64,000 bases of DNA. Source: Bacteroidales bacterium. GTDB taxonomy: Bacteria > Bacteroidota > Bacteroidia > Bacteroidales > UBA932. The notes under the pieces are model-generated. The model was not told the DNA's origin. It saw only the letters and a list, made by a program, of their open reading frames with translations, and did no database searches. The stretch spans positions 30,349 to 94,348 of the forward strand of contig JAGAKR010000022.1 in assembly GCA_017625535.1 (NCBI GenBank). Reading direction: 5' to 3'. Shown in pieces: positions 3,882-20,262 of this stretch (positions within the stretch are counted from its first letter, which is position 1; each line of letters opens with the position of its first letter). The position numbers and the translations under genes were made by a program.

Positions 3882-3916
3882 ATAAAAGAAAAGGCATCCT
3901 TGTACAAGGATGCCTT
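3882..3916 (-). terminator. Intrinsic terminator after rpmA, directly upstream of serS
   Basis: A perfect 26-base palindrome (AAGGCATCCTTGT/ACAAGGATGCCTT) at 3891-3916 is followed on the minus strand by TTTTCTTTTA. It lies between the rpmA stop and the serS start. Orientation and T-tract fit termination of rplU-rpmA, or attenuation of readthrough into serS. Confidence 0.75.
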
Positions 3917-4221: not shown

Positions 4222-4530
4222 TTAAGCAATTGATTCAATTTGGATTTGTGTCAAACACTGGCGGTGACCGTTCATTTTCTGATAGCCTTTACGACGTTTC
4301 TTCTTGAACACAAGCACCTTGTTTCCTTTTACGTGGTCAAGTACAGTTGCTTTAACAACTGCGCCCTCAACGTAAGGAGCGCCAACTTTAACAGCACCCT
4401 CATTGTCGGTTAACAATACTTTTTCGAAAGAGATTGAGGCACCTACCTCATCCTGTAGGCGGTGTACATAAATTTTTTTACCAGCCTCAACTTTGAACTG
4501 TTGTCCTGCAATGTCAACGATTGCGTACAT
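4222..4530 (-). CDS. rplU: 50S ribosomal protein L21
   Basis: The 102 residues match the L21 family in length and motifs: [20 protein letters not shown] at the start, and [18 protein letters not shown] near the C-terminus as the rRNA-binding signature. It is the first gene of rplU-rpmA. A strong Bacteroidetes-type promoter lies upstream at 4625-4655. Confidence 0.97.
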
Positions 4531-4624
4531 TATAATTTGTTTTTACGGGTTATGATAGCAAGCGGTTAATCACTAATTAACTCTTATTCAATAGCTTAAC
4601 TACCTTTTTACTATTTATGGACCA

Positions 4625-4655
4625 CAAAAGTAACACTTTTTATCCATTACACAAA
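4625..4655 (-). promoter_or_regulatory. Bacteroidetes-type promoter of rplU-rpmA
   Basis: On the minus strand TTTG (4655-4652) is followed after exactly 19 bases by TACTTTTG (4632-4625). This matches the TTTG-N19-TAnnTTTG consensus of the Bacteroidetes primary sigma factor. The predicted transcript start leaves a leader of about 90 bases before rplU, a plausible site for ribosomal-protein autoregulation. I saw no specific structure there. Confidence 0.7.
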
Positions 4656-4665
4656 AAATCTTTTG

Positions 4666-4673
4666 TAATTTCG
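4666..4673 (+). promoter_or_regulatory. Probable -7 element for the ATPase-sirtuin pair
   Basis: TAATTTCG at 4666-4673 is one base from the TAnnTTTG consensus and lies about 23 bases before the ATG at 4696. It diverges from the rplU promoter. A convincing -33 box was not found. Confidence 0.4.
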
Positions 4674-4695
4674 CACAAAAATCCGGTTAGAGAAG

Positions 4696-5829: not shown

Positions 5830-5830
5830 T

Positions 5831-6520
5831 ATGGAAAAACAGAACATTGTTGTACTCAGCGGCGCAGGCATAAGCGCCGAGAGCGGAATCCAGACCTTCC
5901 GCGGTGGAAACGGATTGTGGGACAACTACAACGTGGAAGATGTTGCCTCCATAGACGGATGGCACCGCAACAGGGCACTTGTACTTGAATTCTACAACAA
6001 AAGGAGAAAAGAACTGGAGAAATCCCAGCCAAACTCAGCCCACAAGGCAGTTGCCAAACTGGAAGAGAAATACAATGTAACCGTAGTAACCCAGAACATA
6101 GACGACCTGCACGAACGGGGAGGCAGCACCAACATCATCCACCTGCACGGAGAAGCCACCAAAGCCCGCAGCGAATTCTCGGACTACGGCCCAACCTACA
6201 ACATAGGCTACAAAGAACTGAACATAGGTGATTTGGCTCCCGACGGAGGCCAGCTCCGCCCCCACATTGTATGGTTCGGCGAGGCAGTACCCGAACTCAG
6301 CCGCGGTGCCAAGGCAGTTGAAAAGGCCGATATTCTCATTATAATAGGGACATCATTGAATGTCTACCCTGCCGCCGGCCTTGTCCACTATGCAAAAAAA
6401 GGGTGCAGAATCTACCTCATAGACCCTGCCCCAATGAACCTGAACATCCCTAACTTCCAACAGATCCAGGCTCCCGCCACAGAAGGGATGAAGCAACTGC
6501 TGGAGATACTTGATGCATAA
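5831..6520 (+). CDS. cobB: NAD-dependent protein deacylase (class III-like sirtuin)
   Basis: Starting at the ATG one base after the preceding stop gives 229 residues opening MEKQNIVVLSGAGISAESGI, the Rossmann NAD-binding motif. TQNIDDLHERGG (residues 87-98) and the catalytic His in HLHGE (H106) are present. Tyr55 and Arg58 in EFYNKRRK match the Tyr-x-x-Arg pair that binds acidic acyl groups in SIRT5-like enzymes, suggesting desuccinylase/demalonylase activity. The zinc-binding cysteines of typical CobB, expected between H106 and the HIVWFGE segment, are absent. An in-frame upstream ATG would add 17 residues inside the ATPase gene and is unlikely. A palindromic terminator follows. Confidence 0.88.
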   Translation: MEKQNIVVLSGAGISAESGIQTFRGGNGLWDNYNVEDVASIDGWHRNRALVLEFYNKRRKELEKSQPNSAHKAVAKLEEKYNVTVVTQNIDDLHERGGSTNIIHLHGEATKARSEFSDYGPTYNIGYKELNIGDLAPDGGQLRPHIVWFGEAVPELSRGAKAVEKADILIIIGTSLNVYPAAGLVHYAKKGCRIYLIDPAPMNLNIPNFQQIQAPATEGMKQLLEILDA

Positions 6521-6527
6521 AATGAAG

Positions 6528-6551
6528 CAGGTTGGCCGGACGGCCAACCTG
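6528..6551. terminator. Palindromic terminator, GGTTGGCC family copy 1
   Basis: CAGGTTGGCCG, a 2-base loop, then CGGCCAACCTG form an 11-bp perfect stem. It lies between the convergent sirtuin (+) and 220-residue hypothetical (-) genes, so it can act on both strands. A short T-rich run follows. It is one of five near-identical palindromes in this window. Confidence 0.75.
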
Positions 6552-6557
6552 TTCTTG

Positions 6558-7220
6558 TTATAGACTATTGAACATTTCTTCCTCAGAAAATGGGTTTTCC
6601 TCACCAAACAACCGGAGAATTTCCTGTTTTGACAAACTGGATGGGTAATTGACATAAGGCATTGAATCTATATGTCCAAGAAGTTTGCCAATATACCTTA
6701 GCAATTCATATTCTTCAATTGTTGTTGATTCAACATCCTTTGATTTTGCCACATATCTGTCATCAAATGTCAGACTTGTCCAATATTTCACGCCACTTAC
6801 AATAGTGTGTCCTATAGTGTTTATCCTAACTTTTGTCTCCTCAGGAGATACGGAAATCAAATCAATTGCAAGTTCATAATGCTGACGCGGATTTGGAGCA
6901 GATTCCCGTCTGTTTTTATTTCTATATGTATAGACATAAGAATACTTTGCAGGCACTATATCTCTCAATATTAAAGAATCCCCATCATAATCCATCATTC
7001 TCAAGCCCTTGAATTTACCATAATAGCCAATATGCAATATGCATTCCCTTATACTATCTATTGGAACAGGGAACGTATATTCGGTAGGGTTAGTACCAAC
7101 ATAGTCTATCCGTACAATATCCGACTCCTGATAGGTCCTGTAAATTCCATAAAGAATATATATGACAAGCAGGCAGGAAAGACAATACAATATCTTTTTA
7201 AAAAAAATATTTAATTTCAT
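6558..7220 (-). CDS. Hypothetical membrane-anchored protein
   Basis: I do not recognise this family. The 220 residues start with a Lys-rich N-terminus and one hydrophobic segment (ILYCLSCLLVIYILYGIY, about residues 10-28), so it is probably anchored in the inner membrane with the rest outside the cytoplasm. The remainder is mixed alpha/beta with many Tyr and acidic residues and no visible catalytic motif. Its DNA is clearly more AT-rich than that of the neighbouring housekeeping genes. It lies 73 bases downstream of the 216-residue secreted protein and before palindrome copy 1, so it may be the third gene of the lipoprotein module, although the second module lacks it. Confidence 0.65.
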   Translation of the reverse strand: MKLNIFFKKILYCLSCLLVIYILYGIYRTYQESDIVRIDYVGTNPTEYTFPVPIDSIRECILHIGYYGKFKGLRMMDYDGDSLILRDIVPAKYSYVYTYRNKNRRESAPNPRQHYELAIDLISVSPEETKVRINTIGHTIVSGVKYWTSLTFDDRYVAKSKDVESTTIEEYELLRYIGKLLGHIDSMPYVNYPSSLSKQEILRLFGEENPFSEEEMFNSL

Positions 7221-7293
7221 AAGCTTTAACTATTATATCCTTGAAGCCAGTTATCAAAAATTTGTTCTAAAGCAATGCATGTCTTATCTGAAT

Positions 7294-7944
7294 TTATCTC
7301 TTAAATTGTTTCAGTTTTCTTTGTCCTCTTCGTTTATCCATTTTCTCTTTCACTACTTTAGTGTGCTTTATCCATTCCTGCTTGTCATTATCATCCCAAA
7401 AGATTGTCTTTTCCCATTCCTTTCTCATATCCTCTACCTGGTATAGCTTGATTTTACCATCAGGATGTTTCTCCGCCAAATCAATAACATAAATAGTCCT
7501 TTTTATTTTCTTTCCATCCGGCATTCTGTGAAATAGCAAAGATCCGATATAATCTCTCGCATCTCCATAATCCAGATCCTTTATATCATCCCAATATAAG
7601 CATTCAACAATATTTAAGAAAGAACTGTCTTTGAGAAATGTCTTGTGTTGGTCTTTAGGGTTTATGGCTGACTCATAAGCTTTTGGCTTTATCATATAGA
7701 AGTGCCATAATCTCCAAAGACAAACATCTTTTGATTGGACATACAATTGAAAGATTTGAACTGAATCTTTATAATTGTCACTAACATAGGTTGTACGTAC
7801 AGCGTATTCTGTCCTTTCAGATAAATCCTTTATCTTTTGCGCTCCTATAATTATGTATATTCCATCTTTATCTTGCGCTTTGATATCAGTTGTAGTTAAT
7901 ATAACTAAAATAGTCATTATCAGCTTAATGTACTTTTTTATCAT
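7294..7944 (-). CDS. Secreted protein of unknown function, partner of lipoprotein zincin (copy A)
   Basis: The 216 residues begin with a signal peptide (IKLIMTILVILTTTDIKAQ) and end in a Lys/Arg-rich tail (KEKMDKRRGQRKLKQFKR). It is a clear paralogue of the 215-residue protein at 13608-14255. Shared blocks are LWHFYxxKPK, KDQH, KDSSFLNxVxCxYWxDIKD, RTIYxxDLxEKxPxGKIKxYQVED and the basic tail. No known domain is recognised. It starts 12 bases after the lipoprotein zincin stop, and the same adjacency is kept in the second module. Inference: the two products act together, for example as protease and inhibitor or chaperone. Confidence 0.75.
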   Translation of the reverse strand: MIKKYIKLIMTILVILTTTDIKAQDKDGIYIIIGAQKIKDLSERTEYAVRTTYVSDNYKDSVQIFQLYVQSKDVCLWRLWHFYMIKPKAYESAINPKDQHKTFLKDSSFLNIVECLYWDDIKDLDYGDARDYIGSLLFHRMPDGKKIKRTIYVIDLAEKHPDGKIKLYQVEDMRKEWEKTIFWDDNDKQEWIKHTKVVKEKMDKRRGQRKLKQFKR

Positions 7945-7956
7945 ATCCGTGTTATT

Positions 7957-9546
7957 TTAATATAAGTTATTATTCTTTAGGTATTCAATAATAGAGACTT
8001 GGTTATCAATATCTAAATTTTCAAATTCTTTTGTTCTTGTAAGACTCCCCCATTTTGCCTTTTCTGCATCTAAATTTGGCGCCACAGTTCTGATCATATC
8101 AGCTATTTGACTCAGATAGTTTCTAGCGAAAAATTCATGCTGCATTTCATTTTGATCATTTCCCCATAAACTATAACAGTAATTCATTCCAGGAATAGCT
8201 GTTTCTATTGTACTTGCGGAAGCTCCTTTTAGCATCGCGTAAATATTCAGATGAAGTATTTCATGATATATAATTACTTTTTGAATGGCAGGATTAAGTG
8301 AATTAAAATCATAGCTGAATATGATTTTATATGGATTCCCGGCAAAAGCATTATTGAGGCTGAATACACCGGCTGCAATAAGCCGTAATGTATCTGAGAA
8401 GGAGAGCTCAATCTCAATATTAGCATCTTCTACATTGGCAATAATTTCATCTACTAAGGAGTTCTCAGTATCAAGCACATTTTGAAATGTAGCATTGAAA
8501 GAAGTGTTATTTGTCCAATTGATATTTAGAGAACTTGAACTGTTGTTGCTGTTGCCATTACCTCCGCCACCGGTTTGACATTCTCCATTACACCCAAGTA
8601 AGTGACAATAACTACACCCCGTACCAGGATTATCTTCAGGAGTGCATGTACATATCAAAGAACCTGTGCTGAGACAATTACAATTGCCACCAGTACAAGT
8701 ACAACCGCTTCCTCCTCCTTCATCACCTTTTGGCCACTCTCCGTCTACTAATACATCATCCAAAAATTCAGACTCGTCAAGACATTCTGCACATATATGG
8801 CCATAGTCAGGATATACATCTCCTGTTTTTCCGCACATATAACACACTCCAAATATTGTACCTCCTCCGGCGGCTCTGGTTGTGAGTGATTTTACAAAAC
8901 GGATACCTTTATAGTAACCTGCTGGGGATTCCGAATCGTCTGTCTTAAGGTACATTACTGTACGCTCCCCGTTTATGTACTGGAAGATGTTAAGTATTTT
9001 CCCTGACACAGTAGATACTATCATAAATCCGGTAAAGGTTTCCCTGCTTCCCATATAGCTGAATGCAGCACTTGATGTGTTACCTCCAGAATCATTGCCT
9101 ACAATGGTGGCCATTATCTGGCGTCTGGTCCTTTTATCTCCCTGCTCAAATTCTTGGATAATCAGAGAACTGCTCATCTTGGCCGCTTCCGATGCATGAT
9201 TGCCGTTTTTGAGCAATATTCCACCAATGCCGGCATCCATTTTCAGCGGAACCTCATAGGTTCTGGCAATTTTGTCGGGGAAGCGGATTTCATGATATTT
9301 TGCATTTTCCCACAGAGGCTCATATTCTACTCCGCTATAGGACCTTGATTTGGAAAGTGGTGCAGATGATGGCATCTTAAAGTTGGTTGAATTCTGCAAG
9401 GAGTACTCCTTGGCCTGTTGAAGTGAAAATTGTTGATTTTCTGTGCTGTCCAGAAAATCGGCCTCACATGCAGTTATGACAAACATCACTAGAATGAGAA
9501 TAACTGCAGGAGGCATCAATAGGTGTCTGATGCGTTTTCTTCTCAT
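7957..9546 (-). CDS. Cys-rich lipoprotein with HExxH zincin-like domain (copy A)
   Basis: The 529 residues begin with a basic, hydrophobic lipoprotein signal whose lipobox ends ITAC (Cys27), so an SPII lipoprotein is expected. Residues about 60-225 are globular without a recognised motif. A Cys cluster follows: CxxC pairs at 235/238 and 252/255, then ten more Cys between 282 and 323 in Gly-rich sequence. A Ser/Asn linker leads to a C-terminal domain with HEILH at 428-432 and a downstream HEFFARNY (His near 470), the layout of a zinc metalloprotease. The C-terminus of the damaged second copy keeps HEMLH and HDFFAANY, supporting these as functional residues. The substrate is unknown. Confidence 0.75.
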   Translation of the reverse strand: MRRKRIRHLLMPPAVILILVMFVITACEADFLDSTENQQFSLQQAKEYSLQNSTNFKMPSSAPLSKSRSYSGVEYEPLWENAKYHEIRFPDKIARTYEVPLKMDAGIGGILLKNGNHASEAAKMSSSLIIQEFEQGDKRTRRQIMATIVGNDSGGNTSSAAFSYMGSRETFTGFMIVSTVSGKILNIFQYINGERTVMYLKTDDSESPAGYYKGIRFVKSLTTRAAGGGTIFGVCYMCGKTGDVYPDYGHICAECLDESEFLDDVLVDGEWPKGDEGGGSGCTCTGGNCNCLSTGSLICTCTPEDNPGTGCSYCHLLGCNGECQTGGGGNGNSNNSSSSLNINWTNNTSFNATFQNVLDTENSLVDEIIANVEDANIEIELSFSDTLRLIAAGVFSLNNAFAGNPYKIIFSYDFNSLNPAIQKVIIYHEILHLNIYAMLKGASASTIETAIPGMNYCYSLWGNDQNEMQHEFFARNYLSQIADMIRTVAPNLDAEKAKWGSLTRTKEFENLDIDNQVSIIEYLKNNNLY

Positions 9547-9588
9547 AGAAATTATGTTTTTAAGTTATGTTCTGGCAAGATACAAAAA
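9372..9588 (-). repeat. Left arm of 217-bp inverted repeat (promoter, leader and lipoprotein signal region)
   Basis: This segment matches 12994-13210 in inverted orientation with roughly ten mismatches by eye. It covers the -7 promoter box, the leader (AGAACATAACTTAAAAACAT is shared) and the first 58 codons of the lipoprotein gene. Identity stops abruptly just after TTTAAGATGC. Confidence 0.8.
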
Positions 9589-9607
9589 AATATCTGACTG
9601 TTGCAAA
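9575..9607 (-). promoter_or_regulatory. Promoter of lipoprotein zincin module A
   Basis: On the minus strand TTTG (9607-9604) is followed after 21 bases by TATCTTGC (9582-9575), close to the Bacteroidetes promoter form. The leader to the ATG at 9546 is about 25 bases. The -7 box and leader lie inside the segment duplicated at 12994-13210. Confidence 0.55.
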
Positions 9608-9622
9608 TACCGATAAAGCACA

Positions 9623-9648
9623 ACAGGTTGGCCATCCGGCCAACCTGT
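9623..9648. terminator. Palindromic terminator, GGTTGGCC family copy 2
   Basis: ACAGGTTGGCC and GGCCAACCTGT form an 11-bp stem around the loop ATCC. It lies just downstream of the minus-strand calcineurin/propeller gene that ends at 9660 and just upstream of the lipoprotein promoter, so it separates the two units. Confidence 0.75.
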
Positions 9649-9659
9649 CTTTGTTTTTA

Positions 9660-11546
9660 TCAATACTCCAGTACCGTTACTATTCCGTCCATTGTACTTA
9701 CCAGCAGCCTGTTCCCTTTCAATGGCTGTATGTAGTTTATTAGGGCAAATGAGACTTTGTGTTTCCAGGCAATTGAGCCGTCGGAGTGGTTGAGGGCAAC
9801 AATGTTGCCTTTGTCTGTAGGGACAAATACCAGTCCTTTGTCCTCTTTGCCGCCGTATGGTACAGAGGTGATTGGGGTTGGGGCAATCTCATAGCCGAAC
9901 TGGGCATTTGAGCCCCATTTTTTCTGCGGTGCAGTGCCTTCAATCTTTGTTGTGAAGGCATATACTGAGTCCTTCATTACCTTCACATAGTAGTGTTTGC
10001 TGTCGGGAGAAAGGCCTACTGATTCACGGCCTCCGCGGATTCTCCAGAGTTGTTTTCCGGTTTTGGCATCAAGGCCGTAGGTTACCCTCTCCGGAGTTGC
10101 AAAGATTATGTTGCCGTTGGCTTTGATTGGCCATACAGCTGCCGGTGAGAGCATCCTGCTTCCTTTCACTTTCCATTCCCACTGCAGTTTGCCGTTTGTA
10201 GGGTTGAATGAGTAGAGCCTGTTGGCCCAGTCACCTATCACTACCTGCTCTTTATCCACGTATGGTTTTGCCTCTATGAAGCCCTTCACATCCTTGTTCT
10301 CCCAAATGAGTTTTCCGGTTTTGGCATTCAGGGCCCTGAAGGTGTGGTCTGATGCCCCAATATATACTTTTCCTCCAAATACTGTAGGGGAGCCCAATAC
10401 AGATTTTCCGCATTTGTATTTCCAGTTCACCTTGCCGTCCTTTATCCTTAATGAATATATGTATGTATCGCAGGATCCTATTATTACAGATGCTGCATCA
10501 CCGCTTCCGTAAACTGCAGGGGTTGAGAATACCTTGCCGTCTGTCCTGTATTTCCATATCTCATTGCCTGTGGCGGCATCAAGTGCATATACTATTCCCG
10601 ATGTATTTGCATATACAACATATTTTCCACTCTGCACTGCAGCGGCTCCAATGTCTGTATTGTCTGTACGTCTCCATACCTGTTTTACATTGGGCCAGTT
10701 TTCGTTCATTGAGAAATCGGGCCTTGGATACTCTATGTTTGTCTTGAACGGCTTGCCCTCGCTCATTCTGAGTGTGAACCAAGGGGTGCTTGTAATCTGC
10801 GGTTCTACAACCCTCTCCTGGAATGTTATTGTAGAGCCTTTTACCTTTACAATATTGTATCCGGGGCCGCGTTTTCCGGCTTTCTGTGTAGAACGGCCAA
10901 TCATACCAGGTATACCCTCATATACCATTGCACGATCCTGATGCCAATGCCCGTTCATAATGAGTTGGGTATTCATGTTTTTAAGGATGTCCAGCACCTG
11001 GGTATAGTTGAGCACAGATGTATCCATAGGATAGTGGTTTATGAATACCAGCGGCTGGGCAGGGTCAATTGCCTTTGAGAGGGAATCCAGCCATACTATT
11101 GTCTCCCTTGGGACAAGTGCAGGGGCCATCCTCATATTAGGGCCGCTGTTGCACCCCACAAAACGGATACCGTCTTTCTCAAAATCAAACATCTCATACC
11201 CGAACACCTCAAGGAAGGTGTTGCATCCGCTCTCAGACCATTTTGCATCGTGGTTTCCTGCAACTATGTAGTATGGGATTGTAAGTTCATCAAAAATCTC
11301 CTTTGCAAGTTTTATCTCCTCATCAGAACCGAACTCGGTAATGTCACCCGCAAGGATTGCAAATGAGAGCCCTTTCTGGTTATTGATGTCCGCTACACAT
11401 TTTCTGGCATCATCCACAGAGCCGGAACCTACGGAAATATGCACATCCGATAGATATGCAAACGAAAAATCCTGTGCATAAGCACCTGCTGCCAAGCATA
11501 TTGCAGCAAGCAGCACAAGCAGTCTTTTTGTAAATGTCCTTAACAT
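9660..11546 (-). CDS. Secreted metallophosphoesterase fused to PQQ-like beta-propeller
   Basis: The 628 residues have a signal peptide (LLVLLAAICLAAGAYAQ) and two domains. The first (about 27-260) is a calcineurin-like phosphoesterase with the metal-ligand motifs YLSDVH, AGDITE, VAGNHDA, INHYP and NGHWHQD, all intact. The second (about 290-628) has repeated seven- or eight-bladed propeller units of the form V-x-ALDAATGNEIWKY, with variants LNAKTGKLIWE, FNPTNGKLQWEW and LDAKTGKQLWR. It probably acts in the periplasm on a phosphoester. It diverges from the nucleotide-sugar dehydrogenase; TAAATTTG at 11587-11594 on the minus strand is a plausible -7 box. Confidence 0.85.
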   Translation of the reverse strand: MLRTFTKRLLVLLAAICLAAGAYAQDFSFAYLSDVHISVGSGSVDDARKCVADINNQKGLSFAILAGDITEFGSDEEIKLAKEIFDELTIPYYIVAGNHDAKWSESGCNTFLEVFGYEMFDFEKDGIRFVGCNSGPNMRMAPALVPRETIVWLDSLSKAIDPAQPLVFINHYPMDTSVLNYTQVLDILKNMNTQLIMNGHWHQDRAMVYEGIPGMIGRSTQKAGKRGPGYNIVKVKGSTITFQERVVEPQITSTPWFTLRMSEGKPFKTNIEYPRPDFSMNENWPNVKQVWRRTDNTDIGAAAVQSGKYVVYANTSGIVYALDAATGNEIWKYRTDGKVFSTPAVYGSGDAASVIIGSCDTYIYSLRIKDGKVNWKYKCGKSVLGSPTVFGGKVYIGASDHTFRALNAKTGKLIWENKDVKGFIEAKPYVDKEQVVIGDWANRLYSFNPTNGKLQWEWKVKGSRMLSPAAVWPIKANGNIIFATPERVTYGLDAKTGKQLWRIRGGRESVGLSPDSKHYYVKVMKDSVYAFTTKIEGTAPQKKWGSNAQFGYEIAPTPITSVPYGGKEDKGLVFVPTDKGNIVALNHSDGSIAWKHKVSFALINYIQPLKGNRLLVSTMDGIVTVLEY

Positions 11547-11586
11547 ATTTGATTGTTTTTTGTATTGGCTTTTGTATATATACCTA

Positions 11587-11613
11587 CAAATTTACTCTTT
11601 TTTTCTAACTTTG
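11587..11613. promoter_or_regulatory. Divergent -7 elements between phosphoesterase and sugar dehydrogenase
   Basis: TAAATTTG on the minus strand (11594-11587) and TAACTTTG on the plus strand (11606-11613) both match TAnnTTTG. They are correctly placed for the genes starting at 11546 (-) and 11640 (+). Clear -33 boxes were not found for either. Confidence 0.5.
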
Positions 11614-11639
11614 GAGCCGGTAAAACACAACAGAAAAGT

Positions 11640-12929
11640 ATGTACAGCAGATTGGCAGAAAAGAAAGGAAGCATTGCGGTAATAGGATTGGGCTATGTTG
11701 GATTGCCATTGGCCCTTGAACTTGCAAAGAACTTTAAGGTTATAGGATTTGACATAAACAAGAACAACATTTCCCTGCTCAACGGGCATACAGATCCAAG
11801 CCGCGAACTTGGACCTGAGGCTTTTGAAGGCTCGGACATCATATTTACAGACAATCCTTCGGCATTGGATGAGGCGGTTTTCTTTATTGTTGCTGTACCT
11901 ACCCCAATAGACAGCCACCGTGCGCCTGATCTTGCACCTCTGCTTGGAGCCACCAGAACAGTTGCGGCACACCTTAAAAAAGGTGATTATGTAGTTTATG
12001 AATCAACTGTATTCCCGGGCTGCACAAGGGAAAGGTGTGTGCCGGTACTGGAGGAACTGAGCGGAATGAAAATGGGGGAAGATTTCTATGTGGGATACTC
12101 TCCAGAGAGGATAAACCCAGGCGATGTACAGCACAGCCTGCAGAATACAATGAAGATTGTATCTGCCTGCTGCCCACAGGCACTTGAAAACATTGCCAAA
12201 GTATATGAGAGGGTTGTAAAGGCAGGTGTGCACAAGGCCCCTACACTTGAGGTTGCGGAGAGTGCAAAAATTATGGAGAACACCCAGAGGGATGTGAACA
12301 TTGCCCTTATGAATGAGTTCTCAATCATATTCGGCCGTATGGGGATAAACACATACGATGTCCTTGAGGCTGCCGGAACCAAGTGGAACTTCCTCAAGTT
12401 CTACCCCGGCCTTGTAGGCGGGCACTGCATAGGTGTGGATCCGTACTATATGGTGTACAAGGCAAACGAGATGAACTACCACCCTCACGTAATACAGAGC
12501 GGACGTTTTGTAAATGACTCTATGGGCGGTTACATTGGCAAGCACACCGTAAAGAAAATGATTGCAAACGGTATCTCCCCAATTGGTGCCAGGGTACTTG
12601 TACTGGGCATAACCTTCAAGGAGAATGTTGCAGACACCCGCAACTCAAAAGTGGCGGACATTGTAAAGGAACTAAAAAGTTTCAGCATAGAGGTGGATGT
12701 GGTGGACCCTCACGCAGACCCTGCAAAAGTTGAATGGGAATACGGCATAAAGATGGCCTCTGCCCCACAAGGCAAATATCAGGCAGTAATAGCAGCCGTA
12801 TCACATAAGGAGTATGAGAACCTTACGGAAGAGGATTTTGCACAATGGCTTAATCCCGACGGCATACTCGTGGACATCAAAGGGAAATACAAAGGAAAGA
12901 TATCCAGGTTCGGATACTGGAGTCTATAA
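11640..12929 (+). CDS. Nucleotide-sugar dehydrogenase (UDP-GlcNAc/ManNAc-type, TviB/WbpO-like)
   Basis: This enzyme oxidises the C6 of a UDP-hexose or UDP-N-acetylhexosamine with two NAD+, supplying uronic acids for surface polysaccharide. From the ATG at 11640 it has 429 residues. The N-terminal Rossmann motif is IAVIGLGYVGLPLALELA, followed by YESTVFPGCTRE, YSPERINPGD and the central helix KIMENTQRDVNIALMNE. The catalytic Cys lies in GGHCIGVDPYYM, and a C-terminal UDP-binding domain contains LGITFKENVADTRNSK. An upstream in-frame ATG at 11553 would overlap the divergent promoters and precede the NAD motif unnaturally, so the later start is preferred. No other polysaccharide genes are adjacent, which is unusual. 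Confidence 0.9.
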   Translation: MYSRLAEKKGSIAVIGLGYVGLPLALELAKNFKVIGFDINKNNISLLNGHTDPSRELGPEAFEGSDIIFTDNPSALDEAVFFIVAVPTPIDSHRAPDLAPLLGATRTVAAHLKKGDYVVYESTVFPGCTRERCVPVLEELSGMKMGEDFYVGYSPERINPGDVQHSLQNTMKIVSACCPQALENIAKVYERVVKAGVHKAPTLEVAESAKIMENTQRDVNIALMNEFSIIFGRMGINTYDVLEAAGTKWNFLKFYPGLVGGHCIGVDPYYMVYKANEMNYHPHVIQSGRFVNDSMGGYIGKHTVKKMIANGISPIGARVLVLGITFKENVADTRNSKVADIVKELKSFSIEVDVVDPHADPAKVEWEYGIKMASAPQGKYQAVIAAVSHKEYENLTEEDFAQWLNPDGILVDIKGKYKGKISRFGYWSL

Positions 12930-12934
12930 AATTA

Positions 12935-12961
12935 AACAGGTTGGCCGCCGGCCAACCTGTT
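12935..12961. terminator. Palindromic terminator, GGTTGGCC family copy 3
   Basis: AACAGGTTGGCC and GGCCAACCTGTT form a perfect 12-bp stem with a 3-base loop. It starts 6 bases after the sugar dehydrogenase stop and is followed by TGTTGTTTTA on the plus strand. It separates that gene from lipoprotein module B. Confidence 0.8.
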
Positions 12962-12993
12962 GTTGTTTTAGGATACTTGCAAAAGTTGTACAG

Positions 12994-13210
12994 TTTTTGT
13001 ATCTTACCAGAACATAACTTAAAAACATAATTTCTATGAGAAGAAAACGCATCAGACACCTAATGATGCCTCCTGCAGTTATTCTCATTCTAGTGATGTT
13101 TGTCATAACTGCATGTGAGGCCGATTTCCTGAACAACTCAGAGAATCAAAAATTTTCACTTCAACAGGCCAAGGAGTACTCCTTGCAGAATTCAACCAAC
13201 TTTAAGATGC
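12994..13210 (+). repeat. Right arm of 217-bp inverted repeat
   Basis: This is the inverted counterpart of 9372-9588. It holds TATCTTAC (13000-13007) at the promoter position, the same leader and the lipoprotein signal region. A CTTG lies 20 bases upstream of the TATCTTAC, so the promoter spacing is kept. Confidence 0.8.
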
Positions 13211-13604
13211 ATTTATTGGTGAAGATTATACGATATGGTTTAGAAGCAATATATCTTTATTAAGTTCATCTGCCCAAAAAGTTATAGTATTACACGAAAT
13301 GCTTCACTTGAATATTTACGCCAAATTAGTAGGAGAAAATAGGAGTACGCTTGGTAATGTTCTTCCTAATTTTAACCAGTACTATATTGAAAATGAAGAA
13401 AATTTTAATGAAGCATCCCATGATTTTTTTGCTGCAAACTATTTAGATGAAATAGCTAATATTATAAGTAGCCTACTGGGTGGTTCTGAGATTGATAAAA
13501 TAAAATGGAGCAGTCTTACTGAAACTGAGGCATTTAATAATTTGCCAAAGGATCAGCAAGAGAGTATAATAAATTATTTGATAATAAACGGTTTTTATCT
13601 ATAA
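13036..13604 (+). pseudogene. Internally deleted, frameshifted lipoprotein zincin (copy B)
   Basis: The first 58 codons are almost identical to the intact lipoprotein at 7957-9546 (lipobox ITAC, then FSLQQAKEYSLQNSTNFKM). The frame then runs into unrelated codons and stops at 13261-13263. In a different frame from 13206 onward the sequence resumes homology at the equivalent of residue 398. It reads DAFIGEDYTIWF, then VIVLHEMLHLNIYA (HExxH kept) and ASHDFFAANYL, to a normal C-terminus at 13604. About 340 residues, including the whole Cys-rich part, are missing. A short product from the ATG at 13299 would start inside the HExxH motif and lack a signal, so function is doubtful. Confidence 0.8.
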
Positions 13605-13607
13605 AAT

Positions 13608-14255
13608 ATGAAAAAGTTATATTTGATATTAGTGCTATGTCTAATAATTCCAAGAATAAAGGTATTTTCTCAAGATGAGAACGGATTATATTTTGTCGTA
13701 AAATCTGAATATAAGTCAAATGAAGGAAGTGTGTTAGGCAAAGTGATAAAAAGTAAGTATTTTGATAATACTTATTTTGCGTATCGGGATAGTGTAATTA
13801 TTTTTAATGCATATTTAACAACAAGTGATAACCCAATATTAAGATTGTGGCACTTTTATTTGGTTAAACCTAAATTAGGTAAAACAAAAATTGAGTCTAA
13901 AGATCAACACCGGGTGTATTATAAAGATAGTTCATTCTTAAACTCTGTTGATTGTATATATTGGGAAGATATAAAGGATATGATACGCATAGATTTTAAG
14001 GAATATTTAGGACCTGAATTGAGAAATAAAATGCTTAATGAAAATAAAATGCAGCGGACAATATATCTTGTAGATTTATCGGAAAAGGAGCCAAATGGGA
14101 AAATAAAGATTTATCAAGTTGAAGATGTTATTAGACAATGGCACACAGGACCTCATATAGAAGGAGAAGAAGAGCGGGCCCAATATATGAAAACGGTAAA
14201 GGAAAAGATTGATAAACGTAGAGTTGAAAGGAAAGCAAAAACATTCAAGAAATAG
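13608..14255 (+). CDS. Secreted protein of unknown function, partner paralogue (copy B)
   Basis: The 215 residues have a signal peptide (LILVLCLIIPRIKVFSQ) and are homologous along the whole length to the protein at 7294-7944. The kept blocks include LWHFYLVKPK, KDQHRVYYKDSSFLN, YWEDIKD, DLSEKEPNGKIKIYQVED and the basic C-terminal tail. Unlike the damaged lipoprotein 3 bases upstream, this frame is intact, so the partner may still be made and used. The coding DNA is strikingly AT-rich. It ends 13 bases before palindrome copy 4. Confidence 0.75.
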   Translation: MKKLYLILVLCLIIPRIKVFSQDENGLYFVVKSEYKSNEGSVLGKVIKSKYFDNTYFAYRDSVIIFNAYLTTSDNPILRLWHFYLVKPKLGKTKIESKDQHRVYYKDSSFLNSVDCIYWEDIKDMIRIDFKEYLGPELRNKMLNENKMQRTIYLVDLSEKEPNGKIKIYQVEDVIRQWHTGPHIEGEEERAQYMKTVKEKIDKRRVERKAKTFKK

Positions 14256-14268
14256 TTTGTAAAATGAG

Positions 14269-14293
14269 ACAGGTTGGCCGTCGGCCAACCTGT
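14269..14293. terminator. Palindromic terminator, GGTTGGCC family copy 4
   Basis: ACAGGTTGGCCG and CGGCCAACCTGT form a 12-bp stem with a single-base centre. It lies between the convergent partner protein (+) and TonB-type receptor (-) genes. Confidence 0.78.
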
Positions 14294-14317
14294 TTCTGTT
14301 ATAGACAATCTGTGACA

Positions 14318-16909
14318 TTACCAATTTAATGAAAAACCTATCAGATATTCAGCATCCCTAAGGACAGTTGCTTTGCTCACTGTTGATGCTCCGCTGAAAT
14401 AAGTGTAATTGTACTCTTTGGTATCCAGCACATTCCTCAAAAGGGCATAGACCTTCATCTTTGGTCCAAAACTGTACTCTGCTCTAAAATCCAGGAATGG
14501 CAGTGAGATATCTTCATATCTCTTGTCACTGGAGGTCTGCCAGTAATGGTACAATTCCCCTTTAAGCAACAATTTCTCTACTGGGAACCAGTTTGCCGTT
14601 GCCTTTGCTGTTATGTGGTCTATCCCCTGTGATTTGCCGCTTTTGAATATACTGTGGGTATATGAACCCGAACATACTGCCGAAAAGTTGTCTGATGGGG
14701 TGAACTCCATATCTGCACTGCAACTGACGCCCTCTGTATCATATTGGTAATACTCCCCCTGCAAATATTGTTCTGCTCGGTTCAAGGAGTACTCAAATCC
14801 CCCCTTCAACGAGAACACATTGCCAAATAGTTTCTTCACATTGGCTCCAACTGAAAATCTCCTGTTATCGGTCCCTTCATCTATATAAGTTACAAGCGTG
14901 TAATCCTGCAGATACATATCCTGTTGTGCAACACTGGAATGGAAAACATTGTATGACACATTAAGGTTCCAGAATATCATACTTGCAAAACTGCTGTGTG
15001 ACAATGACAAATTGTAGAATTGGGAGATTCTCTCCGGTACCGCATCATATTTGTAAAGATTCCTGTATCCGGTGTATATATATCCTTTTCCCATAGTTCC
15101 AATTCCGCCCACACTGTTGCTTATGCTTGCCCTGCCCTTAATTGCAAGAGAAGTGGAAAGATTATGCTCTGCATATACAGAAGGGGCATAAATCAAATAC
15201 ATCCTGCTGTCTCCATCCAGGAAATCGCCCCTTAGTGCCAAAGGTGCACCAAAATCAATTTTGGTTTTCCGGTATTTCATAAAATAGGATACATCCGCAT
15301 ATGGCTGTACCATAAAAAGATGCAGGTTATTGTACATGGAATCTATATGTGGTGTAACTATAGATTCATATCCGTTATATTCCGCCTTTACACCTGGAGT
15401 AAAGGTAAATGTTCCGTTTCCCATCTGTCTGGAAAATGAAGAGTAGACATTGGCCCTTGCGTTGTCTGTATAGAAGTCCTGTACAACTTCATTTCCCCCG
15501 AACAAGGAACTTATATTATCTGAAAGCACAACCATAGACTGGTTTTGTCGGGAATAATGCATATCAACATTCAATTTCCGGACTTTTGAATTTTTCTTCC
15601 CGACAATTGACAGTTTGTTTTCTGCAATGAAATTTGGCAAATCATAATCCTGCACATAGCCTCCCTGCAAACTTTTACGCACACTTCCTGCCTCATTGAA
15701 AAGGGCTTTTATTGAGAATACATTCTCCACGTACTTTTGTTTGCCGTTGAATGTGTAGGTTATCTCACCTTCCAGCAGTTTGTCTGAGCGTTTGCGCAAC
15801 ATACTGTCAGCAATGACAACAGGCTCCATATCTGCCGGAGTAACTACAGACTTTGTATACACTTCATCCCGTCTGATATCTGAAAAGAATACTACATTCT
15901 GGCGTAATGCGGCATCCGCAGAAAGCTTGTTCAAATTGTTCACAGAAACTGCATTGGATTTGTTGTTGTAATAGTAGTTTTTGGGAACAGGGAGATTAAC
16001 ACTGTTCACAGGAAACAGATCTTCCAGTCCTCCCCCCTGGATTTCCGATAGTCTATATGCTCCAGGCTGCAGATTCTGGGTTCTTGTTTCCATTATTATA
16101 TCTTCGCCGGAGTTGTCGGTCTTGGCAATTGCCATAGTCTGCCGGCCACTGCCAAAGTTCATTGCCGTTACCTTCCCCTGGTATAATATATCGGGAAGCC
16201 CTATATGTCCTCCTATAGTCCAGATCCACCTGTTTTTTGCCTTCTCTTTCAGTTTTATGTTCAAGGCTGCCTGATTGCTCTTTACAAGCCCCTCCAGTGC
16301 CCTGATTGGCTGGTGCTCATAATATACACTTACCGCAGAGATATCTTCAGGTCGTATATTCTTTATGGCCAGGCCATAACGGCCTCCCAACAAATCCATA
16401 TCCTCTATATAGACCTTGTTCACATTAACGCCCTGGACCTTTACTTGTCCTGTGGTTGTAACCTGTACGTGTGGCAGACGGTTGAGAACCTCTTGCAGGG
16501 AATTGTCCTCTTTTCTTACAAATGTATTGGCATCGTATGTTACGGTATCCCCGGCAACCTTAATTGTAACAGGTTTTACTGTAATGGTTGGCAACTGTAA
16601 ATTCTCCTCCTCCAGAACAACATCCTTCACAAGTGTTGTTGCCCCTTTCATATCTACCCGTAGAGAGGTTCTTTTATACCCCATCAGATAAAAATCCAGA
16701 TTTGTGAAACTCCCGGGTATTTTAAGGTCATATGCACCATTGTCTTGTGCAATTGCATATGAGATAACCTTGTCGTTATTGTAGACTGTGACTATTGCAC
16801 CGGGCAAAGGATTGCCCGCAACATCAGAGATATTGCCGCTTACCCTTGTCTGAGACAAAGCATGGAAACAGAAAAGGGTACAGATTATCAATAATAGCAC
16901 TCTTTTCAT
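14318..16909 (-). CDS. TonB-dependent receptor-like outer-membrane protein
   Basis: The 863 residues open with a signal peptide (VLLLIICTLFCFHALSQ). A carboxypeptidase-regulatory-like domain (about 21-100, with VSGNISDVAGNPLPGAIVTV) and a plug-like segment (about 115-215, with LQEVLNRLPHVQVTTTGQVK) follow. The remainder is a beta-barrel ending in an aromatic C-terminal strand (AEYLIGFSLNW). It starts 9 bases after the GLPGLI-family gene stop, a common Bacteroidetes pairing, so the two are probably one operon. The substrate is unknown; the short plug and lack of a SusD partner argue against a polysaccharide-utilisation system. Confidence 0.85.
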   Translation of the reverse strand: MKRVLLLIICTLFCFHALSQTRVSGNISDVAGNPLPGAIVTVYNNDKVISYAIAQDNGAYDLKIPGSFTNLDFYLMGYKRTSLRVDMKGATTLVKDVVLEEENLQLPTITVKPVTIKVAGDTVTYDANTFVRKEDNSLQEVLNRLPHVQVTTTGQVKVQGVNVNKVYIEDMDLLGGRYGLAIKNIRPEDISAVSVYYEHQPIRALEGLVKSNQAALNIKLKEKAKNRWIWTIGGHIGLPDILYQGKVTAMNFGSGRQTMAIAKTDNSGEDIIMETRTQNLQPGAYRLSEIQGGGLEDLFPVNSVNLPVPKNYYYNNKSNAVSVNNLNKLSADAALRQNVVFFSDIRRDEVYTKSVVTPADMEPVVIADSMLRKRSDKLLEGEITYTFNGKQKYVENVFSIKALFNEAGSVRKSLQGGYVQDYDLPNFIAENKLSIVGKKNSKVRKLNVDMHYSRQNQSMVVLSDNISSLFGGNEVVQDFYTDNARANVYSSFSRQMGNGTFTFTPGVKAEYNGYESIVTPHIDSMYNNLHLFMVQPYADVSYFMKYRKTKIDFGAPLALRGDFLDGDSRMYLIYAPSVYAEHNLSTSLAIKGRASISNSVGGIGTMGKGYIYTGYRNLYKYDAVPERISQFYNLSLSHSSFASMIFWNLNVSYNVFHSSVAQQDMYLQDYTLVTYIDEGTDNRRFSVGANVKKLFGNVFSLKGGFEYSLNRAEQYLQGEYYQYDTEGVSCSADMEFTPSDNFSAVCSGSYTHSIFKSGKSQGIDHITAKATANWFPVEKLLLKGELYHYWQTSSDKRYEDISLPFLDFRAEYSFGPKMKVYALLRNVLDTKEYNYTYFSGASTVSKATVLRDAEYLIGFSLNW

Positions 16910-16918
16910 AGCCGGTGT

Positions 16919-17731
16919 TTATTTTATCAGGTATATAGGAATATAGTACCTCTTTTTGGGTGGTGCTGTAGAAGATGATGAAATGACGTTAAAATATATT
17001 TTCTCAAATTTTTGATGATCTGTTTCTGCCATACGTTCAGCCCTTAGCAGATCTTTTATTTTCATCTCTCTAACATCCTTATTGTCTGCCGGCAAAAAGA
17101 CTCTATATGGTTCAGCCAACTGCCCTACATTTTCACAAGTGAATTTGAAATACCCGTTAGAGTCATTTGCCTGCATTACAAGCCCAGGCAATCCCCATAA
17201 TAACCAAGGTCCGTCATTTACAGGTATCTGTGGTGCGTACCATACCTCCCATAACCTCCCTGCAACAGTTGCTGCTGCCTTATGACACAGATAACCATTT
17301 ATGGTAAGTGTATCCTGCTCCAATTTCCACTGTGGCATTTCCAAATCTTCAACTGCTCTGTAGAAATTTATCATCAACTTGTTTGTATAATGATATTTGC
17401 CCTCCACAAATCTCTTGTCAAGATTCCAATTCACTCCTCTCGGAAGAGGCCTGATTTGCTCCACCACCTCCATCCAATGCATGCCTTCTGCAAACAGCGC
17501 TTTTGATACAGAATCTCTGTATTGGTTCGCCCTGCTGTAAAAATAAGAATGCCCGCTCTTGCAAATATCCAAAAAGTATGTATCCTTGTAATATCCTGTT
17601 TTGGTAGAATCTTTCTTAAACCTATAGGTATATTCAGCTCTGTAATATGCAGTATTATCCAGAATTTCCTGGGCAGATGAACTTATATGAAATACGCCCA
17701 AAAAAAGAATTGCAAATAAGGTCTTTTTCAT
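16919..17731 (-). CDS. GLPGLI family protein
   Basis: The 270 residues carry a signal peptide (LFAILFLGVFHISSSAQ) and the family signature NDGPWLLWGLPGLVMQANDS in the second half. The upstream WEVWYAPQIPV typical of the group is also present. The GLPGLI family is widespread in Bacteroidetes, secreted, and of unknown biochemical role; it is often next to TonB-type receptors, as here. It leads the operon with the receptor, from a promoter at 17807-17838. Confidence 0.88.
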   Translation of the reverse strand: MKKTLFAILFLGVFHISSSAQEILDNTAYYRAEYTYRFKKDSTKTGYYKDTYFLDICKSGHSYFYSRANQYRDSVSKALFAEGMHWMEVVEQIRPLPRGVNWNLDKRFVEGKYHYTNKLMINFYRAVEDLEMPQWKLEQDTLTINGYLCHKAAATVAGRLWEVWYAPQIPVNDGPWLLWGLPGLVMQANDSNGYFKFTCENVGQLAEPYRVFLPADNKDVREMKIKDLLRAERMAETDHQKFEKIYFNVISSSSTAPPKKRYYIPIYLIK

Positions 17732-17806
17732 AGTCTGTAATCTTTAAGTCAATAATTAACTATAAGGTTGCTGAGAATGAAAAAATGGAAGTCACCACAA
17801 CCATTG

Positions 17807-17838
17807 GCAAGATATGAAAATAATTGCATTTTCGCAAG
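17807..17838 (-). promoter_or_regulatory. Promoter of GLPGLI-receptor operon
   Basis: On the minus strand CTTG (17838-17835) is followed after 20 bases by TATCTTGC (17814-17807). The same -7 octamer occurs at 9575-9582 and 35128-35135. The leader to the ATG at 17731 is about 70 bases. Confidence 0.5.
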
Positions 17839-17858
17839 CCTGATAATTATACTATAGC

Positions 17859-17955
17859 CCCTATCGGGATGATTTTAAAATAATTTTATTATTTTTGTAC
17901 CCGATAAGGATGATTTTATATCCATTTGTTTTGAATTGTACCCGAAAGGGATAAT
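17859..17955 (+). promoter_or_regulatory. Three operator-like repeats spaced 41 bp, plus -7 box, before hipB
   Basis: CCCTATCGGGATGAT (17859), CCCGATAAGGATGAT (17900) and CCCGAAAGGGATAAT (17941) are direct repeats at exactly 41-bp intervals. Each has a CCC-N4-(N)GG core. The first two continue TTTA and the last two are preceded by GTA. TATTTTTG at 17890-17897 matches the -7 consensus, placing the middle repeat over the transcript start. This suggests cooperative autorepression by the HipB-like protein encoded immediately downstream; three helix-phased sites are typical of HipB-type control. Confidence 0.65.
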
Positions 17956-17964
17956 AGATTGCGT

Positions 17965-18168
17965 ATGAAAATAGATGAGTATATAAGGAAAAAGCGTAAA
18001 CTCCTTAATCTTACACAGCAGGAACTTGCAGAGAGAGCAGGGGTTGGTTATAGGTTTATTAGGGAACTCGAAAACGGGAAACCTACTGTGAGGATGGATA
18101 AAGTGAATCAAGTGTTGTTATTGTTTGGAGAAGAACTTCAACCTGGTAAAATAAAAGATAATCTATGA
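17965..18168 (+). CDS. hipB: HipB-like XRE-family antitoxin/repressor
   Basis: From the ATG at 17965 the 67 residues form a single helix-turn-helix domain (LTQQELAERAGVGYRFIRELENGKPTVR). A TTG two codons upstream is possible but unnecessary. In HipBST systems this protein represses its own operon. Its stop overlaps the next ATG (ATGA), and three repeat sites precede it. It lacks any extended C-terminal tail, so toxin neutralisation may rely on HipS. Confidence 0.85.
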   Translation: MKIDEYIRKKRKLLNLTQQELAERAGVGYRFIRELENGKPTVRMDKVNQVLLLFGEELQPGKIKDNL

Positions 18169-18485
18169 AACGGGCAAAAATATATATAGATGATATTTTT
18201 TGTGGAATACTTACTGAAGGTCCAGACGGCTATGGATTCAAATATACACCTGAATATCTGGCTATGAATAATGCAAAACCTGTAAGTCCTACAATGCCTC
18301 TCCAGAACGAGGAGTATGAGAAGGAAATAATGTTCCCGGTTTTTGACGGGCTGATTCCTGAAGGCTGGATGCTTGATATAGTGCATAATACGTGGAAAAT
18401 AGATCCAAGGGACAGAATGTCTTTGCTGTTGGCATGCTGTAAGGATTGTATAGGTAATATTAGTGTAAGAAGCTATGATGATTGA
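18165..18485 (+). CDS. HipS-like protein (HipA N-terminal subdomain)
   Basis: The 106 residues correspond to the N-subdomain 1 of HipA kinases: IYIDDIFCGILTEGPDGYGF, then SPTMPLQNEEYE and FPVFDGLIPEGWML. It is encoded separately from the kinase, as in HipBST loci of E. coli O127 and many Bacteroidetes loci. In the studied HipBST system this small protein is the antitoxin. It overlaps hipB by 4 bases and the kinase gene by 11 bases, which implies translational coupling. Confidence 0.85.
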   Translation: MKRAKIYIDDIFCGILTEGPDGYGFKYTPEYLAMNNAKPVSPTMPLQNEEYEKEIMFPVFDGLIPEGWMLDIVHNTWKIDPRDRMSLLLACCKDCIGNISVRSYDD

Positions 18486-19452
18486 AATGGAAAACAAGTG
18501 TTTATATTGTTATAGAGAATTAAAGAAGGGGGAGGCAGGATATCATGCTTCGTGCGCTTCCAAACTGTTTGGGAGCACAAAGGCACCCGTAATGCCATAC
18601 TCCAGAAACAATATTGGAGATCTCGCACTTGAGATTCTGAAGTCAAGGACATCCGTTACAGGTGTACAGCCCAAGTTATCATTGGATATAAATAAAGGTG
18701 CAAAGAATGAACCCGACCGCCTTACAATTGTGGGGCTATGGGGTAATTACATACTTAAGCCGCAAAGCCCAAAATTCAATTCTTTGCCAGAATTGGAGGA
18801 TCTTACAATGAAGATGGCTTCTGCAGCAAAAATTGAAACGGCTGTACATGGTCTGATACGGATGTCAGACGGTGAGTTGGCCTATATTACCAAAAGGATG
18901 GACAGGAAAAGCAATGGCGCCAAAATTTCAATGCTGGATATGTGCCAATTGAGCAACAGACTCACAGAGCATAAGTATCTGGGGACATATACACAGTTGG
19001 CAGACATAATAAAAAGATATTCTGCAGTTCCTGTTTTGGATATACAGCGCTATTGGGAAATAGTCATTTTCTCATGGATTACCGGTAATTCCGATATGCA
19101 CTGCAAAAATTTCTCCCTTATGGAAAGGGACGGGATAGGTTATACTTTATCTCCCGCTTATGATTTGCTTGCTGTTCTATTGACAGGAATAGATGACAAA
19201 GATGAACTTGCCATGCCATTGACGGGATATAACTTTGAAAGCGACAAGAGTTTCTTGGGCTATAACAGAGCATCTTTTTTGGAAGCTATGGCCATTAGCG
19301 GGATAGACTCCGTAATAGCCAATAAACTTATTGGCAGGATGATAAAAAACAGAAGTAAATGGTTTGAATTGATAGAAAGTTCATTCTTGTCATTATCTTT
19401 AAAATATGCATATAAAGAGTTGATTGACGACAGGATAGAAAAATTGGGCTGA
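18475..19452 (+). CDS. HipT-like serine/threonine kinase toxin
   Basis: The 325 residues form the kinase core of the HipA family. A small Cys/His knuckle (CLYCYRELKKGEAGYHASC, residues 9-27) opens the protein. The Gly-rich loop reads SVTGVQPKLS (60-69), the ATP-site lysine lies in YILKP, the catalytic Asp207 in GNSDMHCKNFSL and the metal-binding Asp230 in SPAYDLLA. All catalytic residues appear intact. Alternative ATGs at 18478 and 18487 are possible; the last falls just after the HipS stop. Known HipT phosphorylates tryptophanyl-tRNA synthetase, but the target here is unknown. It is followed by palindrome copy 5. Confidence 0.85.
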   Translation: MMIEMENKCLYCYRELKKGEAGYHASCASKLFGSTKAPVMPYSRNNIGDLALEILKSRTSVTGVQPKLSLDINKGAKNEPDRLTIVGLWGNYILKPQSPKFNSLPELEDLTMKMASAAKIETAVHGLIRMSDGELAYITKRMDRKSNGAKISMLDMCQLSNRLTEHKYLGTYTQLADIIKRYSAVPVLDIQRYWEIVIFSWITGNSDMHCKNFSLMERDGIGYTLSPAYDLLAVLLTGIDDKDELAMPLTGYNFESDKSFLGYNRASFLEAMAISGIDSVIANKLIGRMIKNRSKWFELIESSFLSLSLKYAYKELIDDRIEKLG

Positions 19453-19456
19453 GATT

Positions 19457-19503
19457 GATATAAAGCAACAGGTTGGCCGCTGGCCAACCTGTTGCTTTAT
19501 ATC
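19457..19503. terminator. Palindromic terminator, GGTTGGCC family copy 5 (22-bp stem)
   Basis: The arms at 19457-19478 and 19482-19503 are perfect 22-bp complements around a 3-base loop. The core ACAGGTTGGCC is shared with four other copies, and the flanking GATATAAAGCA/TGCTTTATATC extends the stem. It overlaps the batE stop codon at 19497-19499 and lies between convergent hipT and batE. Confidence 0.85.
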
Positions 19504-20261
19504 ACCTCAACATCATTCATCTGCATCCACCCCTGTCTTCCGTCCGAGATCTCTATGCGGCACCATTTGCCGGCCTCTTCCAGAATTTCAACCTTTGAGC
19601 CTTCATGCAGGATGAACAGGTTGTTTCCCGTAGCATTTGGGGCACTCTTCACATTGCTCACCGGCACCATTACAATGGCTTCATCCTCACTGTTGGCATT
19701 TGCCCTCAGATTGGCTGCAAAAATTACTGCAAAGATTGCAAAGAGGAACACAATGCAGGCCATTACAAAAGAGAACTTGCGCTGGCCGGTTGTAGGGGCA
19801 AACTTGAACAGCAGCATAAGCAGTGCAACAACCGCAAACAGTGCCACCGAAACATATGCCCATCCGTTTGATGAAATCATATTGCGTATCTCCTTTATCC
19901 AGGTGGAAAGGATGAACTCCGGCACCACCTCTATTTTGTCAAGTGTCTGCAACCTTGCAATCTGCAGGTTTGTCTTTGCATCCTCCCCGGCAGGATTGAG
20001 CTTAAGGGCCTTCTCATAATAGAGGATTGCCTTGCCCATACTGCCTGTCTTGTAATATGCATTGCCTATATTATAGTACAATTTGTATGAATGCACCCCG
20101 TTCTCCTCTATCTTAAGGTAATCATTGAGGGCTGTCTCATACTGCCCCATAGAGTAGGCATCATTTGCACTGTTCCACAACAGGCCGTTGCTGTTGGCGC
20201 TAAGGTTAACAGCAATCATAAGGCACAATGCCACAAAAACATATTTTATCTTATGGTTCAT
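19497..20261 (-). CDS. batE: BatE: TPR and SH3-like protein of the aerotolerance operon
   Basis: The 254 residues have a signal peptide, two TPR-like units (ANDAYSMGQYETALNDYLKI and YNIGNAYYKTGSMGKAILYY), two membrane segments (about 130-150 and 165-185), and a C-terminal bacterial SH3 domain (ILHEGSKVEILEEAGKWCRI ending in GWMQMNDVEVI). This is the standard BatE layout with an SH3 end. It is last in the Bat operon, one base after the batD stop. The Bat proteins are linked to oxygen tolerance in Bacteroides fragilis; their biochemical function is not settled. Confidence 0.88.
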   Translation of the reverse strand: MNHKIKYVFVALCLMIAVNLSANSNGLLWNSANDAYSMGQYETALNDYLKIEENGVHSYKLYYNIGNAYYKTGSMGKAILYYEKALKLNPAGEDAKTNLQIARLQTLDKIEVVPEFILSTWIKEIRNMISSNGWAYVSVALFAVVALLMLLFKFAPTTGQRKFSFVMACIVFLFAIFAVIFAANLRANANSEDEAIVMVPVSNVKSAPNATGNNLFILHEGSKVEILEEAGKWCRIEISDGRQGWMQMNDVEVI

Positions 20262-20262
20262 A

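Follow-up and report, generated by a model that had tools for sequence, protein, structure and literature searches.

Copies of one short palindrome at the five seams of inserted gene blocks in a Bacteroidales genome

The window analyzed here is a stretch of 64,000 nucleotides from a Bacteroidales bacterium (UBA932; assembly GCA_017625535.1, contig JAGAKR010000022.1, positions 30,349 to 94,348 of the forward strand). Within it, three inserted gene blocks (A, B and C) lie between a sirtuin gene and a gene that we take to be BatE-like, around a native pair formed by a 628-amino-acid (aa) gene and a presumably UGDH-like gene. Each of the five seams of this arrangement (sirtuin/A, A/628, UGDH/B, B/C and C/BatE) carries one of five near-identical palindromes. 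An initial annotation had reported the palindromes; what is added to that picture here is that they mark seams of inserted blocks and that two of these blocks are mutually inverted copies. Open reading frames (ORFs), blocks and palindromes were arranged as follows.

5780..6520, plus strand: sirtuin gene, native flank (SIR2 match and synteny)
6528..6551: palindrome 1, seam of the sirtuin gene and block A, between convergent genes (arm count and hairpin search)
6558..9546, minus strand: block A, three ORFs of 529, 216 and 220 aa
6558-7220, minus strand: 220-aa ORF of block A, no role assigned by architecture
7294-7944, minus strand: 216-aa ORF of block A, immunity-like by architecture only
7957-9546, minus strand: 529-aa ORF of block A, toxin-like by architecture only
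9623..9648: palindrome 2, seam of block A and the 628-aa gene, between the stop of the latter and the 529-aa gene start
9660..12929: native pair, 628-aa gene and UGDH-like gene (ORFs, family match and synteny)
9660-11546, minus strand: 628-aa metallophosphatase/PQQ-repeat gene
11553-12929, plus strand: gene that we take to be UGDH-like
12935..12961: palindrome 3, seam of the UGDH-like gene and block B
12962..14255, plus strand: block B, degenerate inverted copy of block A, starting with a 529-type gene start
13299-13604, plus strand: ORF of block B, diverged C-terminal piece
13608-14255, plus strand: 215-aa ORF of block B
14269..14293: palindrome 4, seam of blocks B and C, between convergent genes
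14318..19452, both strands: block C, four ORFs
14318-16909, minus strand: 863-aa ORF of block C
16919-17731, minus strand: GLPGLI protein of block C
18165-18485, plus strand: HipA N-terminal-domain protein of block C
18475-19452, plus strand: HipA_C protein of block C
19456..19504: palindrome 5, seam of block C and the BatE-like gene, with 23-bp perfect arms
19497..20261, minus strand: BatE-like gene (presumed name), native flank (ORF and synteny)

The arm ACAGGTTGGCC occurred nine times in the window, to which the count of this single 11-mer outside palindromes was confined, and every occurrence fell inside the five palindromes (100 dinucleotide shuffles gave a mean of 0.08 and a maximum of 1). 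The palindromes are thus real, at the initially annotated coordinates within a few bases. Nine of the ten arms carried the exact sequence, the exception being the left side of the copy at 6528, which reads GCAGGTTGGCC, so that the description of a shared arm with differing loops of 1-4 bases applied to all arms but this one. In window order, palindromes 1 to 5 had loops of 2, 4, 1, 1 and 3 bases and maximal perfect arms of 11, 11, 13, 12 and 23 bp. Palindrome 5 shared the core, but its full extent (19456-19504) far exceeded it, the right arm including the end of the minus-strand gene (ORF end 19497). As derived from ORF ends and palindrome coordinates, the distances from the preceding stop codon to the palindrome were 7, 11, 5, 13 and 3 bases. 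The initial statement that the palindromes lie mostly between convergent genes was correct for three of the five (6528, 14269 and 19456), while those at 9623 and 12935 follow the stop of one gene, and a 529-aa-type gene or what remains of it begins downstream of them in the same direction.

All ten palindrome strands folded below each of 200 shuffles, with z values from -4.9 to -11.1 (two strands each: -4.9/-5.4, -7.7/-6.4, -6.5/-4.9, -7.8/-5.8 and -9.7/-11.1 for palindromes 1 to 5), and all five displayed the stable, G+C-rich hairpin of an intrinsic terminator. A terminator scan of positions 4500-22000 returned 30 sites (14.5 expected from shuffles), the top seven being these palindromes, and the terminator consensus was present on both strands for palindromes 1, 2 and 3. 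Folding and scan are therefore consistent with the terminator-like character proposed initially. Intrinsic bidirectional terminators are described as an A-rich side, a hairpin and a T-rich side (PMC1852404). The window palindromes resemble them in being stable, in having an A-rich left flank and a T-rich, though interrupted, right one, and in closely following stop codons, in most cases where two genes converge. Unlike ordinary terminators, which differ in sequence within one genome, the five share one sequence. Beyond the arms, too, the flanks resembled each other more closely than after shuffling (0 of 2000 shuffles for each of four lengths); the null of this comparison is weak, as bidirectional terminators are expected to have A-rich tails.

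Blocks A and B, in opposite orientations, shared a 289-bp tract at 90% identity that begins ahead of palindromes 2 and 3 and reaches into the 529-type gene. Their outer ends aligned over 47 bp at 85% identity, spanning palindromes 1 and 4. The duplication thus includes the palindromes. Block B is degenerate: compared with the 529-aa protein, its first 59 residues matched at 90% and its C-terminal piece at 43%, the latter match being broken by one stop. Block C has no relation to the other two; its 863-aa and GLPGLI genes had relatives at other places in the genomes G006 and G007, and the best relative of its HipA gene was found at another place, in G038.

Polymorphic toxin-immunity cassettes combine a conserved N-terminal part with varying C-terminal parts and carry a small gene behind. 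Relatives of the 529-aa protein were matched in 15 of 398 family genomes, and among 20 places outside the window's own genome (G000), 19 matched within residues 1-349 and one matched residues 352-528 only, a pattern of conserved N-terminal and exchangeable C-terminal parts. This pattern, together with the small gene that follows, likens block A to such cassettes as far as sequence alone can tell; unlike them, no protein of block A matched a toxin or immunity family in Pfam or NCBIfam. Pfam gave no match for the 529-, 216- and 220-aa proteins, and the 216-aa protein had only weak NCBIfam matches, far below cut-off. Since Pfam matches are lacking, we infer the toxin and immunity roles from architecture, and the 529/216 pair is regarded as a putative toxin-immunity-like cassette. 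Contig 106 of G282 (L186, 6409 bases) displayed two opposite matches to the 529-type N-terminal part near its two ends, as in A and B. A rule by which identical palindromes would enclose every 529-type locus was rejected, as no local palindrome family was found in 18 other 529-like stretches or in the G423 stretch.

The palindrome family was confined to this region of the assembly, which comprises 31 contigs with 2,181,994 bases and is 88.6% complete. A strict pattern recovered four of the five palindromes and no other place, the fifth differing by one base; a looser one recovered all five, along with a different hairpin on contig 31. Absence of further copies is not absolute, because about 11% of the genome lies outside the assembly. 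The five window copies and one copy in G022 were combined into a 62-position model and searched for in 39 genomes of the genus, where these six copies scored at E <= 4.8e-14 and the next best place at 3.0e-6. Weaker matches (E up to 0.01) occurred in 25 of the 39 genomes, and the few that were checked looked like ordinary hairpins. Across the family, the core pattern was present in three of 398 genomes, at five places in G000, one in G022 and one in G423. The G423 copy had a longer loop and was judged unrelated by position or flanks, as were similar hairpins in G005, G007 (contig 57), G009, G040, G082 and on contig 31 of the own assembly, and those of G007 and G024 (L012, L013) after a gene that we take to be fabD-like. 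One identical hairpin with ACAGGTTGGCC arms and identical flanks was observed in 17 viral stretches from IMG/VR (L240-L256) and judged unrelated. A plasmid search with positions 5000-20500 (near mode) and an Rfam search on positions 4500-22000 returned no match. Elsewhere in the window, a loopless perfect palindrome of 26 bp (AAGGCATCCTTGTACAAGGATGCCTT) was present between ORFs at 3891-3916.

This distribution bears on the spreading element proposed initially, of the repetitive extragenic palindrome (REP) or miniature inverted-repeat transposable element (MITE) type, and on the DNA-uptake signal proposed beside it. The palindrome is short, intergenic and multicopy, as either would be, but five copies within 13 kb, with none elsewhere in the 2.18-Mb assembly and the pattern in so few family genomes, make a dispersed repeat or uptake signal very improbable, and both proposals were abandoned. 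Inverted DNA uptake sequences of Neisseria act as terminators, and nearly 2000 uptake sequences are present per genome (PMC3898611). The window palindromes are like these inverted sequences in having a common core in inverted pairs at gene ends, and unlike the uptake sequences so described in being five, in one region.

Another explanation without copying is independent selection, in this region, for one terminator or protein-binding sequence. Arms were kept while loops varied, and the G022 arms were identical despite differences of 15-26% in the flanking genes, as such selection would predict. However, different arms were seen in other hairpins, both of the window and of relatives, the resemblance of the flanks extends beyond the arms (with the weak null given above), and palindromes 2 and 3 lie inside the 289-bp duplication, so that independent selection appears improbable. 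A genus-wide habit of reusing local terminators was not seen in a control on 127 partly overlapping stretches of at least 4500 bases (1,902,985 bases, window included), in which 277 hairpins were collected (arms of at least 8 bases, loop of at most 8, arm G+C of at least 0.35). Apart from the palindromes, pairs with 8 common arm bases in the same stretch were found once in L078, once in L104 and once in the coding part of blocks A and B, the latter being duplicated coding sequence (window 9397 and 13170).

Comparison with relatives displayed the native state of the two junctions. In nine stretches of the same genus (G002, G005, G010, G012, G015, G017, G019, G021 and G034), the sirtuin and 628-aa genes face each other with their 3' ends, and the BatE-like gene lies beyond the 628-aa gene. 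In G005, the UGDH-like gene is present with its end facing BatE, and both junctions measure only about 10 bases, which leaves no room for a hairpin. The window keeps this native order, with extra DNA at both junctions: A between the sirtuin and 628-aa genes, and B and C between the UGDH-like and BatE-like genes. At the sirtuin/628 junction, different inserts were present in G000, G021, G034 and G010 and none in G005, so that different cassettes occupy the place between the same conserved genes across genomes. Minimal mobile elements of Neisseria are described as varying whole-gene cassettes between two conserved genes, swapped by homologous recombination (PMC3898611). The locus resembles them in its conserved genes with differing inserts across the genus and in one piece of cassette whose identity between two species far exceeds that of the surrounding DNA; it differs in its seam palindromes, which do not belong to the definition.

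Gene order departed from the native one in a few genomes. The 628/UGDH pair is flipped in G006 (L026/L237), the end of the 628-aa gene faces BatE in G024 (L025) and G007 (L145), and the locus of G009 is rearranged in its own manner. Junctions of G006, G024 and G007 carried hairpins of other sequence. G006 and G024 had first suggested that the window's pair was inverted at the palindromes; this was dropped, because nine stretches share the orientation of the window and G006, G024 and G007 are the odd ones. A tandem TTGC run adjoins the end of the UGDH-like gene in G024 (L025, about 2880-2925).

In G022, the palindrome lies between the BatE-like gene and a 225-aa orthologue of the window's 220-aa gene. 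Two G022 contigs (L142, L143) end in the same 283-base stretch, which holds the end of the 216-aa gene; one adjoins BatE, with the palindrome, and the other adjoins the sirtuin gene, without it. An orthologue of the 628-aa gene was not found in G022 (best match 35%), and the middle of the locus is therefore missing there. The end of the 216-aa gene (window 7294-7495) was 99.5% identical between G000 and G022 over 202 bp, whereas eight other gene segments, including the 220/225 gene at 84%, lay at 74-85%; a recent exchange of the cassette between species would be the simplest reading.

Hairpins of IS200/IS605 elements and attC sites of integrons are recognised by a transposase or recombinase. 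The palindromes could likewise be ends of a transposon or site-specific element, given that each end of A, B and C bears one and that A and B are opposite-oriented copies of one unit. The blocks differ in content, though, no further copy was found in the assembly, and no transposase or recombinase family was matched among the 10 proteins from sirtuin to HipA or the nine of a second scan, the rest of the genome lying outside both searches. We consider element ends unlikely.

The palindrome could also be a recombination handle, a short homology used for cassette recombination or polymerase template switch and left on both sides. All five seams carry it, no other place in the assembly does, and even the unrelated block C is bracketed, on which account we retain a handle as a possibility, a tentative one. 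The two outer arms of palindrome 5 are similar to tails of the neighboring genes, to that of HipA in G038 (one of ten other HipA loci) and to that of the BatE-like gene in G022, as if the tails had been matched at an inverted short homology. Origin of the HipA-side outer arm by copying of a BatE-like tail was considered, and is weakened by the similar HipA tail in G038. Against a handle, the same hotspot took inserts in which no such palindrome was found in three genomes (G021, G034 and G010), so that insertion between the sirtuin and 628-aa genes does not require the palindrome; the 18 other 529-like stretches have no local family; and no breakpoint inside a palindrome was seen among the genomes compared, which include no close strain pairs. 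Promoter early stem-loops (PeSLs) of T4-like phages mediate gene shuffling (PMC4503421). The window is like them in having one repeated short hairpin at the borders of shuffled genes, at five of five seams, and unlike the PeSLs described there in lying on a bacterial chromosome, in five copies only, with no promoter shown in the repeat and shuffling by the hairpin not demonstrated here. A terminator might double as a handle, with unrelated cassettes captured at one joint that is reproduced on both sides and insulates the blocks by construction; this, too, we hold as a minority possibility.

The explanation we favor, as the more probable one, is that the five palindromes are bidirectional intrinsic terminators copied locally with gene cassettes. 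Local copying, which the initial annotation had kept in reserve, best explains the five copies. A putative toxin-immunity-like cassette with one terminator at each end would be present twice, in opposite orientation, flanking the 628/UGDH pair; two palindromes per cassette in two copies make four, and the fifth would arise as block C comes between the outer terminator of block B and the BatE-like gene. The blocks may have entered by ordinary homologous recombination. Most likely, the palindromes stop transcription both ways at the seams, so that inserted blocks and native genes would be expressed without mutual read-through. Because inserts of other genomes at the sirtuin/628 junction lack such palindromes, these are probably passengers and insulators; as insertion at that junction does not need them, copying with the cassettes is favored.

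Several observations weigh against the copied-terminator explanation. Palindrome 4 (14269) was terminator-like on the minus strand only, and for palindrome 5 only a short inner piece was listed (19482-19466, minus strand) by a scan that requires loops of 3-8 bases and takes no more than 20 pairs into account. Interruptions occur in the T-rich tails of the palindromes. Duplication of A and B alone does not explain the fifth copy, as the unrelated block C is bracketed too. The sirtuin-side cassette copy of G022, without a palindrome, must be read as a loss, and since loops differ among copies, either the copies are not very recent or loops change fast.

A limited literature search found no publication title describing this locus, which does not imply absence from print. 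In this compact example, one short sequence recurs wherever inserted genes meet their neighbors. If the palindromes are handles, the stem-loop shuffling of T4-like phages would have a counterpart on a chromosome; if they are passengers, they would show how an insertion hotspot separates inserted from native transcription units.

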